Source: an uncultured Pseudomonadota bacterium
GTDB lineage: Bacteria > Pseudomonadota > Gammaproteobacteria > Steroidobacterales > Steroidobacteraceae
Assembly (NCBI GenBank): GCA_903839465.1
Contig: CAIMCI010000012.1
Location: 1 to 36,046 of the forward strand
Reading direction: 5' to 3'
Length of the DNA: 36,046 nucleotides
This document shows, one piece after another, positions 28,294-33,971 of this stretch. Made by a program: the position numbers and the translations under genes. Under the pieces are notes generated by a model. The model saw only the letters and a list, made by a program, of their open reading frames with translations, was not told the origin of the DNA and made no database searches. Each line of letters begins with the position of its first letter. The first letter of the stretch is position 1.

Positions 28294-30681
28294 CTATCCC
28301 ACCCGCGCAAGGTCCGGGACGTCACCGTCCTGGCGGGGAACGCGGGGTGTGGTCTCGGCCCGGCGCCGTACCCACGCCTCGAACTCCGCGGCCGCAACGG
28401 GTGCGCTCACCAGGTAGCCCTGTGCGTAATCGCAGCCGAGCTCACCGAGGATGGCGAGTTCGCCGAGTTCCTCCACGCCTTCCGCAACGACCGTCAAACC
28501 CAGGCCGTGGGCGAGTTCGGCGGTCGACCGGACGATCGTCTGCAACTGGCGGTCGGCGTCGACCCGGCTGATGAATGCGCGGTCGATCTTGAGTTCGTCG
28601 ACCGGCAGGTCGCGCAGGTAGGCGAGAGACGAGTAGCCGGTTCCGTAGTCGTCGATGGACAACGGATGACCGCGTTCCGCGAGCATCGCCAGTGTCTCCC
28701 GGGCACGCCTTGGGTCATCCATCACGCCGCTCTCGGTCACCTCGATCCGCAGGCACTCGGCGGGAATTCCAGCGGTGCTGCAGGCCTCGGAGACAAAATC
28801 GGCAATCCCATCCGACATGAAATCCCGGGTAGACAGGTTGATCGCCACCTGGATTGAAAGCCCGCTTGCGCGCCAGAGCGCTTGCTGGCGCGCCACGTCG
28901 CGCAGTACCCACCGTGTCAGAACACGGATATAGCCAGTCCTTTCGGCAAATGGAATGAAGAGCCCTGGGGGAACCCGGCCACGGACCGGATGCCGCCAGC
29001 GAAGGAGCGCCTCGGCACCGGTCACCTCGCCGGTCGCCAGATTGAGCTTTGGCTGATAGAACATCTCGAGCTCATCCCGGTCGACCGCCCGCTGCAGCTC
29101 ACTCAGCAGCGTGAGCTGATCATCGCGGACCTCATCGGTCGTGGCGTCGAATATTGCGAACCCGGTGCGAGTGGTCTTGGCCGTATGCATGGCGACATCG
29201 GCCTGGCGCAGAAGCTGTTCGGAGGTCGGGCCGTGCGGCGGGAACTGGGCCAGACCCACGCTCGCGCGCACATCGACCGCCTGGCCACGCGTCTGGTACG
29301 ACTCCTCGAATACGCCCGCGATTCCCGAGGTGACGGCGCCGACATCGCAGTCACCGGCAAACAGCGCCGCGAATTCATCCCCGCCGAGGCGAGCGACGCA
29401 GCTCGCGCCATCCAGTGCGCCCAGCAGCCGGCTCCCGACCTGCACCAGGATCTCGTCGCCGGCGGCGTAGCCGAGCACGTCGTTGACGCTCCTGAACCGA
29501 TCAAGCCCCACGACGAAGACGAAGACCGTGGTCGGTCCTCCGGTGCCATCGACCATCGCCGACTGCAGCGACTGGATCAGCCGGACCCGGTTGGGCAGGC
29601 CGGTCAGGGCGTCCTCGTAGGCCAGACTGAGGATGCGGTGTTCCCGGTCTCGAATGCCTTCCCTGAGATGGTTGAGGCCGTCCGCGACGGCACCGAGCTC
29701 ACCGCCGACCGCCTTCGGGGTCACCAGCGGCGTGTCGTAGTCGCCGCGCGTGATGCCGCGCATGGCGACCAGCAGTTCCTCAAGCGGCCTCGTGATGCCC
29801 CTTGCCAGAAGCACGCTGATCAGGGCCAGAACCGCCAACGCGACGAGGCCCAGCATCAGCAGCAGATTGCGCACGTCGAAAAAATACTTCAGGGCCGGAA
29901 CCAGCGGCCGTTCAATGACGCAGATCAGTGAACCCGGCCGCTGTTGATTCAGGTCTATCACGGCGCCCTGATGCGGACCGTCGTCCATCTCCGCGGTCCA
30001 GGTTCCCTGCCGCCTGGCTCCGCCATGGCTGAGGATGGAAAAATTCCCGTCACGAGCCCGATAGGTGGAGGCAATGACACGCGGCCCGGCTTCGCCGTTC
30101 GAGATGAAGGTGACATTGAGGTTCGTCAGGTGCTGCAGTTCCTTTGCCATCGCCTCATCGAGCGGGAAGAACAGGACCACCCAACCAACGATAACCGGTG
30201 ACCGAACCGGCGCCGGCACCATCTGGTAGGCCTGACCCCCGACCACGACCGGCTGCAGCGGCCTTTTGCCATTGCCCTGGATGAAGTCCGCCAGCGTAGT
30301 CGGCACGTCATGGCCCAGCCCGCCCAGGGTCCCGGCGACGGAGTCACCGCGCGTGTCCAGGAACACGGCGCCCTTGGCACCGATTCGCACGGAGATATTC
30401 TCCAGGGCCGATTCGAGCGTGCTCGTGTCGCCGCTGGCGACCGCTTCCCGGAACGCAAAATCAGCGACCAGTCCCTTCGCCGCCTGGCCGCGCTGCTCGG
30501 CGTTCTGCTCGAGCAGCCGCAGAAACACCCGTCGGGCGACCGTGAGTTCGTCCGCCACCTTCAACTTTGCCGAGTCGTAGCTGGCCAGGCTGACGACCAG
30601 AACCGTCGCGACCTGGACGACGAAGAACAGCGCGATGAACGATGCCGCAATCCTCGTCCGGAGTGTCCAGGCGCTTTTCAT
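28294..30681 (-). CDS. Membrane GGDEF/EAL c-di-GMP protein
   Basis: This 795-aa protein has TM1 at about 11-33, a periplasmic sensor of roughly 235 residues, TM2 at 272-294, HAMP at 295-345, GGDEF at 350-515 and EAL at 525-775. The GGDEF signature RLGGDEF (433-437) is present, but the upstream metal-binding Asp of the DxDxF strand is Gly392 (VVGLDRFRSVND). No RxxD inhibitory site is seen. The EAL domain keeps YQPKL, Glu557 (AEALLRW), NLS, EVTES, DDYGTGYSSL, LKIDRAFI, VAEGVE and the QGY glutamine, so it should degrade c-di-GMP. It is the last gene of a three-gene operon: its ATG overlaps the stop of the cupredoxin-like gene (ATGA). The periplasmic sensor may read signals from the two exported upstream products (inference). 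Confidence 0.93.
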   Translation of the reverse strand: MKSAWTLRTRIAASFIALFFVVQVATVLVVSLASYDSAKLKVADELTVARRVFLRLLEQNAEQRGQAAKGLVADFAFREAVASGDTSTLESALENISVRIGAKGAVFLDTRGDSVAGTLGGLGHDVPTTLADFIQGNGKRPLQPVVVGGQAYQMVPAPVRSPVIVGWVVLFFPLDEAMAKELQHLTNLNVTFISNGEAGPRVIASTYRARDGNFSILSHGGARRQGTWTAEMDDGPHQGAVIDLNQQRPGSLICVIERPLVPALKYFFDVRNLLLMLGLVALAVLALISVLLARGITRPLEELLVAMRGITRGDYDTPLVTPKAVGGELGAVADGLNHLREGIRDREHRILSLAYEDALTGLPNRVRLIQSLQSAMVDGTGGPTTVFVFVVGLDRFRSVNDVLGYAAGDEILVQVGSRLLGALDGASCVARLGGDEFAALFAGDCDVGAVTSGIAGVFEESYQTRGQAVDVRASVGLAQFPPHGPTSEQLLRQADVAMHTAKTTRTGFAIFDATTDEVRDDQLTLLSELQRAVDRDELEMFYQPKLNLATGEVTGAEALLRWRHPVRGRVPPGLFIPFAERTGYIRVLTRWVLRDVARQQALWRASGLSIQVAINLSTRDFMSDGIADFVSEACSTAGIPAECLRIEVTESGVMDDPRRARETLAMLAERGHPLSIDDYGTGYSSLAYLRDLPVDELKIDRAFISRVDADRQLQTIVRSTAELAHGLGLTVVAEGVEELGELAILGELGCDYAQGYLVSAPVAAAEFEAWVRRRAETTPRVPRQDGDVPDLARVG

Positions 30682-31292
30682 TGGCCGGCGTTGCCCAGCG
30701 GGGATACCGGAAGGCGGACCTCGCGGGACACGGCATCCACGCCCGTCACGGCCATCGTCTGGGTCTGTGGTCCCGATTCCATTCCGGGGTACCAGGCAGC
30801 GAGTTCATAACTCGCCGGTCGGACGCCATGCAGGACCAGCACTCCGCCGGAATCGGTCTTGCCGAAGATTGGCGTGTCCACGACCGCGACCCAGGCAGCC
30901 ATGGCGTCGTGGATGTTGCACCCGAGGACCACAATCCCCTCGTGATCGAAGACCACCGGCGCCGGCGGCTTTCCGGCGTAGAGCTTGATCGTGAACGGCT
31001 TGGCCGGCGAAAACGAGTAGACGGAATGCCGAATCTGGTCGCTGTTTGGGAACGCAACGGCCGTTCCGACGGAGACTACGCTGATCTGCGGCGCGAACTG
31101 CTTGTTCTTCTGGTCGATGGTGACCTGCGCCGGCGCGCCCACGGCCGCGACGCCGGCGCCACGCAGGTAGACGACGGCCTCCGGCAAGGGATGGCCCGCC
31201 GCATCGCTGACCTTGACGGTGATATCAGCCGCCAGCGCCCGCGAGATGAAGGCCGCCGCAAGCACGACGAGCGGCAGGATGCGACTGGCCAT
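30678..31292 (-). CDS. Exported cupredoxin-like protein (methylamine-utilization-like)
   Basis: This is a 204-aa periplasmic protein. A signal peptide (ILPLVVLAAAFISRALA) precedes a cupredoxin-type beta sandwich. A complete type-1 copper ligand set is visible: His89 (QIRHSVYSF), Cys125, His128 and Met131 (GCNIHDAM). The C-terminal part (TDSGGVLVLHGVRPASYELAAWYPG) looks like a carboxypeptidase-regulatory/transthyretin-like extension. Similar proteins are often labelled methylamine-utilization proteins, but no other mau gene is here. The start ATG overlaps the stop of the truncated-globin gene (TAATG) and its own stop overlaps the GGDEF/EAL start. That points to strict co-expression and a joint role in redox or copper sensing. 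The function is not established. Confidence 0.82.
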   Translation of the reverse strand: MASRILPLVVLAAAFISRALAADITVKVSDAAGHPLPEAVVYLRGAGVAAVGAPAQVTIDQKNKQFAPQISVVSVGTAVAFPNSDQIRHSVYSFSPAKPFTIKLYAGKPPAPVVFDHEGIVVLGCNIHDAMAAWVAVVDTPIFGKTDSGGVLVLHGVRPASYELAAWYPGMESGPQTQTMAVTGVDAVSREVRLPVSPLGNAGQ

Positions 31293-31756
31293 TACGGAGC
31301 CCCCAGACCGGCGGAAGGTCTCTCGACGATTTCCCGCTCCATGGGTGCCAGGCGCGAGATCAGTTCGTTGCGCGCCGAGAGGCCCACTCCCGCCCTGCGC
31401 AACGCGTCCTGCAGAAGTTCAGTGAAGGCGAAGAATTCTCCCTGGGATATGCGCTGACCGGCGTGCACCTCTCGCATCGAATCTCCGGAGTAGCGGCACG
31501 CGCCGCCCGTCAGCTCACAGAGCTGTTCTGTGACGAGGGTCTTGATCCGGGGCAGATTGCTGCCGTGGAACGACCGGCCGGTTCGGGGGTCCGAAGCGGC
31601 ATGGTCGATAAGATCGGCTACCACCCGGCCGAGCACCGGCTCGCCTCCGATGCGGTCGTAGAGCGTCGGTTCAGCGGCAGCGAGACGACCACCAGACAAC
31701 GAGAGAACGCAGGCGACCAGCAGGGCCTGCGGCGTTCTCATCGTGATCACGGCCAT
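31292..31756 (-). CDS. Exported group 1 truncated hemoglobin
   Basis: This is a 154-aa protein with an N-terminal signal peptide (PQALLVACVLSLSGGRLAAA) followed by a 2-on-2 globin. The domain opens with TLYDRIGGEPVLGRVV, the usual truncated-hemoglobin start, and has FHGSNLPRIKTLVTEQLCELTGG, then MREVHAG with the proximal haem ligand His98, and FFAFTELLQDAL. Most truncated globins are cytoplasmic, so the signal peptide is unusual and implies O2, NO or redox chemistry in the periplasm. I prefer ATG 31756, with GGGGAAAGG upstream; ATG 31777 and 31741 are alternatives. It is the first gene of the operon with the cupredoxin-like and GGDEF/EAL genes, divergent from the DUF3034 gene. Confidence 0.87.
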   Translation of the reverse strand: MAVITMRTPQALLVACVLSLSGGRLAAAEPTLYDRIGGEPVLGRVVADLIDHAASDPRTGRSFHGSNLPRIKTLVTEQLCELTGGACRYSGDSMREVHAGQRISQGEFFAFTELLQDALRRAGVGLSARNELISRLAPMEREIVERPSAGLGAP

Positions 31757-31851
31757 CGCCTTTCCCCGGCCATCCATGGATGTAGAATGTTAGCCCCCAA
31801 TGGCGTCGTGCCGCGTTAAGTACCTCACAACCAATTACTTTCGAGGCGAAG

Positions 31852-32781
31852 ATGCCGGCTCCGGAGGCCAATGCCGAGTGTCCCCGCGAAGCTCGGACCG
31901 TGACCCGGTTCACAGTCGCCGGAAGTTGCCGCCCGCTGCTTCTCCTGCTGCCCGTCGTGATCGCCAGTTTCGCCGGGGCGTCGGCCTACGGTTCCGGACG
32001 CCTGGCAGCGACCGGCGGCCTTGCCGAGATCGACGGTGCGGGTGGCGGAGGCCTTACGCCGTGGGCACTGATCGCCGGACTCGGCACGGATGACGAAGTG
32101 GGGGGCAGCGCGCACTGCACGGACGTCCGCCCCCGGGACTTCTCGCTTGTCGCCTGTGGCCTGTCCATCGGAGTGCACGACAGGGTCGAGGTATCGCTGT
32201 CCCGTCTGCATCTTTCGCTCGGCGATGTCGTACCCGGCCATACGATCGACGAGTCCGTCGCGGGTGTTAAATACCGCCTGGCGGGACAGGCCGTCATCGA
32301 TCAGGACCGGTGGATGCCGCAGATTTCAGCCGGCCTGTTCCTGCGCCATAACGAGGATTTCCGCCCCGTAGCCCAGGCGCTGGGCGCGCGCCACGCCTCG
32401 GGCGCAGAGTTGTACATCGCTGCGACCAAGATTCTCCTTGCCGGCCCGTTCAGCCGGACCTGGCTGCTGAACAGCACCGTGCGGCTCAGCAACGCGAACC
32501 AGTTCGGCCTCCTCGGCTTCGGCGGGGACCGTGGCGACTACCGCTTACTGGCTGAAACGAGCGTCATTGTCTTTGTCGCGGACCGTGTCGCGCTCGGCGG
32601 CGAGTACCGCCAGAAGCCGGACAACCTGCAGGGAGTCCGCGAGGATGGCGCGGGCGCTCTGGTGCTGAGCGTCATTCCGAGCAAGCACTGCACGATTACG
32701 TCGGGCTACGCTGACCTCGGCCATATCGCCGGGCGCGGCACCCAGAGAGGTCTCTATCTTTCCGTTCAGGCTGCATGGTAG
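31852..32781 (+). CDS. DUF3034 family exported protein
   Basis: This is a 309-aa protein with a long N-terminal region, then a signal sequence (LLLLLPVVIASFAGASAYG). The mature part opens GSGRLAATGGLAEIDGAGGGG, the hallmark of DUF3034 proteins. It continues with alternating short strands (HDRVEVSLSRLHLSLGD, FGGDRGDYRLLAETSVIVF, GTQRGLYLSVQAAW), like a small outer-membrane barrel ending in Trp. The function is unknown. ATG 31852 has GAGG five bases upstream; GTG 31900 would give a more usual signal length but has no ribosome site. It is divergent from the truncated-globin operon and overlaps the phosphoesterase gene by 7 bases. Confidence 0.8.
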   Translation: MPAPEANAECPREARTVTRFTVAGSCRPLLLLLPVVIASFAGASAYGSGRLAATGGLAEIDGAGGGGLTPWALIAGLGTDDEVGGSAHCTDVRPRDFSLVACGLSIGVHDRVEVSLSRLHLSLGDVVPGHTIDESVAGVKYRLAGQAVIDQDRWMPQISAGLFLRHNEDFRPVAQALGARHASGAELYIAATKILLAGPFSRTWLLNSTVRLSNANQFGLLGFGGDRGDYRLLAETSVIVFVADRVALGGEYRQKPDNLQGVREDGAGALVLSVIPSKHCTITSGYADLGHIAGRGTQRGLYLSVQAAW

Positions 32782-33971
32782 TGCAATTGCCGGAAAAGCC
32801 CCTGACAGCCTGGTTCCGCGCATTGCGGCGATTCAGTCTCTGCCGTGTTTTTGGCCCGGCACTTGTCCTTTTGCTCGGACTCGACGGCTGCAGCCCGGCG
32901 AATCCGCGGCGCGAGACCTGGGCTTTTTCGGTCGCCGGCGATTCCAGGAACTGCGGGAATCTCGTCATGCCCGCCATCGCGGCGGGCGCGAGAGCCAACC
33001 ACTCGGCCTTCTACTGGCACCTTGGCGATCTGCGCAAGACCTACGCCATCGACGAGGACTTCGCCGCCGAGCGCCGTTACAGGGGGGCCGGTTACGCGCC
33101 GACGATGACGGACTACACGCACCTCGCGGCGTCCGACTTCGTCGAACACCAGGTCAGGCCCTTCGGCGACATGCCGTTTTTCGTCGGGATCGGCAATCAC
33201 GAGACCATCGCGCCCGCCTCGCGCCTCCAGTTCCGGGTCACCATGCGGGAGCTTCTCGATCGACCCGAGCTTCGCAACCAGCGCCTCCGCGACGGCATCC
33301 CGGCGGATGCCCTTCGGCAGGACGCACTTCCGCCGACGTACTACCACTGGCGCATCCGGGGCGTGGAGTTCATTTACCTCGACAACGCGACCGACGATGC
33401 CTTCGACGACGACCAGATGCAGTGGTTCGGCGAAATCCTCCGACGTGCGCTGGCTGACCGGGCGGTGAAAGCGCTGGTCGTCGGCATGCACGAGGCGCTG
33501 CCACACAGCCTGGGAGACGACCACAGCATGTGCGCGTCGAAACGCGGAATCGCGTCCGGTGAGCTGGTTTATCGCCAGCTCGCGCAGGCAAGGGACGCCG
33601 GCAAGCATGTCTACGTGCTGGCCAGTCATTCCCACTTCTATCTCGCCAACGTATTCGAGACCCCCTACTGGCAACAGGCGGGCCCCGGCGTACTGCCCGG
33701 ATGGATCATCGGCACCGCCGGTGCTGAGCGATACCCGCTTCCCGCGGGGGTCGCGCCGGGACCCGATGCGCGCAGCCGCGTATACGGCTACCTGCAGGCA
33801 ACCGTTTCGGCCGACGGCACCATCGATTTCCGCTTCCAGGAACTGGCGCGCGGGGACCTCGCTTCACATCTCAGCCCGGACCTTGACCCCGAAATCCTCG
33901 ACGTGTGCGTCGACGCCAACCCACCGGCGTCGGCCCCTGCCCGCTCACGACCGCCCGTCCCCTGCGACTAG
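32775..33971 (+). CDS. Metallophosphoesterase lipoprotein (calcineurin-like)
   Basis: This is a 398-aa envelope protein whose signal peptide ends in a lipobox (LGLDGC, Cys39). Calcineurin-type metal motifs follow in order: VAGDSRNCG (55-61), WHLGDLRKTY (84-87), VGIGNHETI, VVGMHEALPHS and ASHSHFYLANV. The last pair stands for the two C-terminal His motifs. The active site looks complete, so it is probably a periplasmic or surface-facing phosphoesterase; the substrate is unknown. Its ATG sits inside the last codons of the DUF3034 gene (7-base overlap), so the two are translated together. It is convergent with the polysaccharide deacetylase. Confidence 0.86.
   Translation: MVVQLPEKPLTAWFRALRRFSLCRVFGPALVLLLGLDGCSPANPRRETWAFSVAGDSRNCGNLVMPAIAAGARANHSAFYWHLGDLRKTYAIDEDFAAERRYRGAGYAPTMTDYTHLAASDFVEHQVRPFGDMPFFVGIGNHETIAPASRLQFRVTMRELLDRPELRNQRLRDGIPADALRQDALPPTYYHWRIRGVEFIYLDNATDDAFDDDQMQWFGEILRRALADRAVKALVVGMHEALPHSLGDDHSMCASKRGIASGELVYRQLAQARDAGKHVYVLASHSHFYLANVFETPYWQQAGPGVLPGWIIGTAGAERYPLPAGVAPGPDARSRVYGYLQATVSADGTIDFRFQELARGDLASHLSPDLDPEILDVCVDANPPASAPARSRPPVPCD

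Follow-up and report, generated by a model that had tools for sequence, protein, structure and literature searches.

Gene content of the locus

The subject of this analysis is an operon of an uncultured bacterium of the Steroidobacteraceae that encodes an exported globin, an exported protein with a cupredoxin domain (here CUP), and a membrane receptor. It lies in a stretch of 36,046 bases (the window, which is the whole of contig C12, one of 421 contigs in a 3.86-Mb draft genome). The list of open reading frames (ORFs) and the sequence agree with the initial annotation in placing three overlapping genes on the minus strand, with one base common to the globin stop and the CUP start (TAATG) and an overlap of the CUP stop with the receptor start (ATGA). 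A divergent gene for a protein of the DUF3034 family, 74 bases from the globin gene, had been missed by that annotation, as had a conserved cysteine pair in the globin. The features of the locus are as follows.

28294..30681, minus strand: receptor of 795 amino acids, periplasmic dCache_3, then HAMP, GGDEF, and EAL (Pfam; EAL catalytic columns)
30678..31292, minus strand: CUP, exported cupredoxin-domain protein of 204 amino acids with H89, C125, H128, and M131 (alignment, profiles, predicted fold)
31292..31777, minus strand: exported group-1 truncated globin with H105 and Cys87/Cys94, start at 31777 or 31756 (Pfam, alignments, PDB profile)
31778..31851, no strand: 74 bases separating the divergently oriented genes for globin and DUF3034, presumably holding both promoters (sequence)
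31852..32781, plus strand: DUF3034 protein of 309 amino acids, predicted 12-strand outer-membrane barrel (Pfam PF11231, model, Foldseek, co-occurrence)

The cupredoxin-domain protein and the receptor

CUP falls below every Pfam cut-off, and its sole match is a sub-threshold one to CarboxypepD_reg. H89, C125, H128, and M131, which together form the two His, Cys, and Met of a type-1 copper ligand set, are the same in all 38 of the relatives aligned, and the C-x2-H-x2-M spacing of the last three is the one known from amicyanin. Among PDB entries, the CUP profile picks out copper nitrite reductases and the type-1 copper domain 5fc9, and the predicted model (mean predicted local distance difference test, pLDDT, 90.3) has a cupredoxin fold whose structural matches, with E between 3e-5 and 5e-5, include pseudoazurin (E 3e-5), amicyanin, and 5fc9. 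The full copper set recognized in the initial annotation is thus borne out, and CUP is predicted from its sequence and model to be a soluble, periplasmic, copper-binding type-1 protein. It shares fold and ligand set with amicyanin and pseudoazurin but differs from them in its additional N- and C-terminal strands and in having a receptor as neighbor. Public records name CUP "methylamine utilization protein"; no methylamine dehydrogenase genes were found among the eight window genes scanned with Pfam, the scan being confined to those eight. Diverged CUP homologues at two loci, L176 (1556-3446) and L233 (5731-8801), lie near genes for CCP_MauG di-heme cytochrome c peroxidases, and the name may stem from such neighbors. 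A second CUP gene is present in the genome of the window itself, at the start of contig C87 (1-648, locus L032), directly followed by a gene for a porin-like protein (652-1881); any upstream receptor would fall outside that contig.

The receptor is, as had been described, a membrane protein with a periplasmic sensor, HAMP, GGDEF, and EAL (Pfam dCache_3 E 7.5e-12, HAMP 1e-8, GGDEF 2e-26, EAL 1.6e-70). Its EAL catalytic residues are intact, and across 68 EAL-type relatives E557 is kept in 68/68 and the other catalytic columns checked in 66-68/68, the shortfall being mostly a one-row gap. The motif GGDEF or GGEEF is exact in only 29 of these 68, and it is intact in the window receptor, which could therefore be a dual enzyme; hydrolysis of cyclic di-GMP (c-di-GMP) is the activity predicted from the catalytic columns to be conserved across the receptor family. 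No invariant or nearly invariant His, Cys, or Met was found in the sensor columns, so that any metal or heme chemistry would need partner proteins. Searched against the PDB, the sensor profile matched HAMP-bearing segments and gave no match restricted to the periplasmic part.

Conserved linkage of CUP to receptors with different outputs

The surroundings of CUP were surveyed at 154 loci, comprising 80 from a contig scan, 57 from a phylum sample, and 17 from a class sample, three sets that may share species. The contig scan with the CUP alignment gave at least 582 confirmed relatives; the survey took the best 80 loci from these, which for that reason lean to close relatives. CUP was found at E ≤ 1e-20 in 55 of the 398 genomes of the phylum sample, where 57 of 61 places were taken and the remaining four (G000 twice, G139, and G107) were known already; the class sample covered 185 genomes, and two of its 17 loci, L169 and L170, were chosen for a nearby receptor. 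In GC-rich loci, antisense shadow ORFs arose from greedy gene calling; neighbors were therefore recounted with profiles, a partner being counted as near within 4.5 kb on either strand and the five loci cut by contig ends being retained as cut. The output profiles were built from the surveyed loci themselves, and GGDEF is not covered by the one for EAL.

A receptor stands near CUP on the same strand in 135 of the 154 loci, and its output is EAL in 119, class-III cyclase in 8, Ser/Thr kinase in 4, histidine kinase in 2, and other in 2. The last two are L039, in which the EAL gene is split across several ORFs, and L231, which Pfam identifies as a histidine kinase and whose sensor match is weak. 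Outputs were confirmed with Pfam as cyclase in L035, L036, L057, L084, L088, and L094, as kinase in L042, L044, and L047, and as histidine kinase in L037, and those of L188, L189, L229, and L230 were confirmed as well; dCache_3 fell below its cut-off in some of these receptors (L037, L088) and was not found in L230. It had been proposed initially that the operon feeds c-di-GMP hydrolysis, and this is the commonest output, but it does not define the system, as cyclase and kinase outputs occur too. From these differing outputs it follows that CUP tracks the periplasmic sensor and not c-di-GMP output, and the presence of one CUP family beside four kinds of output with a common sensor-HAMP part makes CUP probably the input of the receptor.

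Genomes in which CUP and the sensor are apart are also informative. Eight genomes with a receptor-less CUP locus were searched, and one sensor match was found elsewhere in five of them (G317, G333, G301, G548, and G197), while G521 and G513 have a sensor match beside their other CUP and G107 lacks any. Within the class sample, 12 of the 13 genomes that carry CUP at E < 1e-35 also have a sensor match at E ≤ 1e-18, compared with 3 of the 147 that lack a CUP match. Distances between CUP sequences correlate with those between sensors (r 0.73, n = 71, three of the rows being cyclase types); with the EAL-domain columns taken into account the partial correlation is 0.63, and none of 999 permutations gave as high a value.

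We read the operon as an envelope-spanning relay in which CUP is the dedicated input of the inner-membrane dCache-HAMP receptor and the output of the receptor is variable, and we put the probability of this reading at roughly 0.55. Several points weigh against it. Shared ancestry can produce CUP-sensor distance correlations, and the excess of this correlation over that between sensor and EAL is insecure (interval -0.06 to 0.32). Close coupling of the two genes counts in its favor, as 46 of 77 pairs have a nearest in-frame receptor start that overlaps the CUP stop and another 28 have one within 60 bases, but choosing the nearest start biases the overlap count to small gaps. As the sensor profile includes HAMP and HAMP-only matches reach ~1e-18, L230 (7e-22, 1 kb off) and L231 (2e-13) are weak examples, and the kinase gene of L047 is 1.8 kb from CUP. 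No such receptor is found nearby in 14 of the 154 loci, and the genome of G107 lacks one despite having globin, DUF3034, and CUP.

A different explanation is that the exported proteins form an envelope redox or transport unit, engaged in electron transfer, nitric oxide (NO) or peroxide removal, or the passage of copper or a substrate through the barrel, and the receptor senses a product of this unit or simply shares the operon, with CUP never touching it. Consistent with such a unit, CUP has an exported partner and no receptor nearby in six loci with the porin-like protein (L099, L185, L187, L195, L198, and L201), two with globin and DUF3034 (L043 and L208), and one with DUF4394 (L197); the link of the partners to CUP is roughly as firm as that of the receptor; and the diverged homologues of L176 and L233 lie near di-heme peroxidase genes instead, so that the CUP family may originally have served in redox enzymology. 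However, signaling is favored by the four output types next to CUP and by the five genomes in which the receptor is unlinked, and we consider this explanation somewhat unlikely.

Two observations on receptor genes may be added. Some Pseudomonas-type loci carry, next to the module, an additional receptor that has this sensor and ends in EAL (L104, 11546-13888; upstream of CUP in L183 and L184). In L039 (3870-8382, genome G085), the receptor gene is broken into several ORFs and the DUF3034 gene into two, whereas globin and CUP are open, which reflects either decay or assembly errors.

The exported partners

The globin matches Bac_globin (PF01152, 46.0 bits against a cut-off of 21) and belongs to group 1, its best PDB profile match having an E of 1.6e-26. 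The initial annotation had described an exported truncated hemoglobin with proximal His98, and this holds, as His98 counted from the ATG at 31756 is H105 of the 161-amino-acid ORF. H105, C87, and C94 are invariant in 36/36 aligned rows and Phe70 is kept in 33/36; heme binding by the window globin is predicted, and Cys87 and Cys94 may form a disulfide. With the group-1 truncated hemoglobins among its PDB matches it has the fold family, the proximal His, and Phe70 in common, but it differs from them in being exported, in its Cys87/Cys94 pair, and in a B10 column without Tyr. A Tyr at B10 is usual for group-1 truncated hemoglobins, and in the column that we take to be B10 the window globin has Ile57, with Tyr in 0 of the 32 rows of alignment A5. 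The globin would be expected to stabilize O2 weakly, and the earlier suggestion that it detects O2 is weakened by the missing Tyr, although this feature is not specific, as other globins unlinked to CUP are alike (such as L147-L157, including L147, L148, and L150-L152).

Seven surveyed globins without sign of export (L158, L159, and L162-L166) have Tyr at B10 and lack the Cys pair. The pair is also absent in three globins with signal-like N-termini (L149, L153, and L161), and four globins that have it are located away from CUP (L142, L144, L145, and L146). In 23 of 32 globin rows, the mature part follows a loose lipobox pattern, so that many of these globins resemble lipoproteins; the pattern is doubtful in the window and in L054. 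The lipoprotein-like Cys-pair globin of L145 (1423-1932, genome G028), which is unlinked to CUP, has Ala at the proximal-His column and is either a heme-less globin or misaligned.

The DUF3034 protein (PF11231, E 2e-82) was modeled with 12 strands of 8-14 residues (mean pLDDT 77.7). Its structural neighbors among the listed Foldseek matches are the outer-membrane barrels FapF, the COG4313 channel, NanC, and OmpG, with a best E of 1.5e-6 but template modeling (TM) scores by query of just 0.22-0.48 in the listed rows; its profile gave two weak PDB matches across 38 residues, which were not used. On the basis of the model, we read it as a probable outer-membrane barrel.

Across the 154 loci, globin and DUF3034 occur together in 62, globin without DUF3034 in 3 (L057 and L084, in both of which the globin sits at a contig edge, and L105), and DUF3034 without globin in 1. 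The other partners are DUF4394 in 19 loci and POR, a porin-like family of ~410 amino acids, in 17, while 52 are labeled "none", meaning that none of the searched families is present; in L034, one such locus, a weakly OMP_b-brl-like gene lies between receptor and CUP. No locus among the 154 has two of DUF3034, DUF4394, and POR, a mutual exclusion to which shared ancestry contributes. DUF4394 was confirmed with Pfam in two members (L115 and L168). The POR profile matches 18 loci, including L032 in the window's own genome; in L185 and L195 the POR protein has no Pfam family, and in L122 it matches Porin_4 below threshold. In the class sample, DUF3034 is present in 9 of 185 genomes and adjoins CUP in 7, the exceptions being G026 and G156, and 6 of 7 globin places at E < 1e-44 adjoin CUP, with G174 as the exception.

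Globin, CUP, and an EAL receptor occur together in 56 of the 154 loci, so the three genes are not rarely found together, and the globin also stands beside cyclase-type receptors (L057 and L084). The gene orders include a divergent DUF3034 gene with globin-CUP-receptor (12 loci plus variants), CUP-receptor-DUF3034-globin (11 loci plus variants), and, on a Caballeronia plasmid, DUF3034-globin-CUP-receptor on one strand, annotated there as "DUF3034 family protein", "group 1 truncated hemoglobin", "methylamine utilization protein", and "EAL domain-containing protein". That unrelated genes are adjacent by chance would fit the 52 loci without any searched exported partner, but the linkage recurs in several Pseudomonadota families and in several gene orders, and for both CUP-receptor and globin-DUF3034 the census refutes an idea that we regard as highly improbable.

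The three genes had originally been taken for one device. The unit is conserved, its swapped outputs favor CUP feeding the receptor, and a single device is supported for these two; the globin is an accessory, accompanying DUF3034 in 62 of 65 globin loci, and membership of the globin-DUF3034 pair in the same device is likely, but less firmly so. The core of the unit is CUP and the dCache receptor, and the linkage is wider than first claimed. The globin label clusters on the CUP tree (2 changes vs. 15.3 in shuffles). The window CUP has a long branch and is placed among DUF4394 and unlabeled rows, leaving its nearest kin unsure.

A proposed relay and its relation to known systems

In the relay that we favor, CUP would bind or release the periplasmic domain of the receptor depending on its copper loading or redox state, a contact and a direction of control that we infer, and the EAL part of the receptor, in the case of the window, would then alter c-di-GMP hydrolysis. 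The DUF3034 barrel and the exported heme globin may act upstream, supplying or reporting a signal such as NO, oxidants, or electrons. It is the nature of the proteins that suggests copper loading, redox, or NO as the signal. A broader version is tentative and, in our view, somewhat less likely than not: as a general sensory architecture of bacteria, the periplasmic blue-copper protein may be an input adaptor shared by a receptor family, its redox state relaying information from outer membrane to inner membrane, with interchangeable inner outputs (c-di-GMP phosphodiesterase, nucleotide cyclase, histidine kinase, or Ser/Thr kinase) and interchangeable outer front ends (globin-DUF3034, DUF4394, or a porin-like barrel).

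Separate partner proteins of c-di-GMP enzymes are familiar from H-NOX proteins, which bind their enzyme and are cytosolic, unlike the heme and copper proteins of CUP loci, which are exported. In one review, a separate heme protein of this kind tunes a GGDEF-EAL c-di-GMP enzyme (PMC8846402). YfiBNR of Pseudomonas and HmsCDE of Yersinia combine an outer-membrane part, a small periplasmic regulator, and an inner-membrane c-di-GMP enzyme, as here, and in HmsCDE periplasmic redox enters through HmsC. The CUP loci differ from both in their cupredoxin regulator, their dCache receptor with GGDEF-EAL or other outputs, their barrel or DUF4394 protein, and their optional globin. In NspS-MbaA of Vibrio and Sinorhizobium, a periplasmic protein signals via a membrane protein with GGDEF and EAL, as proposed here; NspS is a polyamine-binding solute-binding protein, whereas CUP has a copper fold and the output of its receptor varies. 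Pfam found no YfiR-type family in CUP at E ≤ 0.01 and no solute-binding protein family in CUP or the globin, and the resemblance of the relay logic to YfiBNR and NspS-MbaA would be a likeness of working, not membership.

Such regulators offer a general precedent for CUP as a YfiR-like protein adaptor whose metal site is structural, the signal being neither copper nor redox. However, four type-1 ligands invariant in 38/38 relatives are more than an adaptor needs, and we judge such an adaptor improbable.

Membrane receptors driven by periplasmic proteins are already known as a kind. No report of a cupredoxin driving one was found in searches of the open-access literature, and no description of the globin/CUP/DUF3034/receptor set was found there, which is not proof of absence and agrees with the initial statement that no characterized system of this composition was known. 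The terms "copper" and "cupredoxin" do not occur in the main text of the 2022 review of c-di-GMP stimuli (PMC8846402, term search), and the accessible portions of PMC3770913 (truncated hemoglobin and EAL terms) and PMC6629876 (metal-regulated phosphodiesterase) contain no such gene set. The CUP-receptor gene set is widespread in bacteria, with named strains of Pseudomonas, Herbaspirillum, Methylophilus, Methylovorus, and Marinomonas among its hosts, and is apparently unstudied. The relay, if true, has implications for the common "methylamine utilization protein", DUF3034, DUF4394, and a class of exported globins, all of which would gain a function, and a route from periplasmic redox or copper state to c-di-GMP, cyclic-nucleotide, and kinase signaling would become testable. 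Bacteria may, by way of a blue-copper protein, read copper or redox chemistry outside the cytoplasm.

Further observations

A search for an FNR-type box upstream of the operon gave 0 matches at 77 loci and also 0 in random regions and is uninformative. An ORF at 32775-33971 overlaps the DUF3034 stop by 7 bases; it has no Pfam or NCBIfam match, and no homologue was found around the 96 CUP loci searched. In L134 (1438-3631, genome G026), a DUF3034 gene without CUP or globin nearby is followed by a gene for a Pyr_redox_2 oxidoreductase. In L168 (4949-8903), on the Comamonas aquatica plasmid p1_SCLZS63, DUF4394, CUP, and an EAL receptor are encoded beside a PilV shufflon and type IV pilus genes; the plasmid is typed as non-mobilizable, and the presence of the set on it indicates that the CUP set can travel on plasmids.

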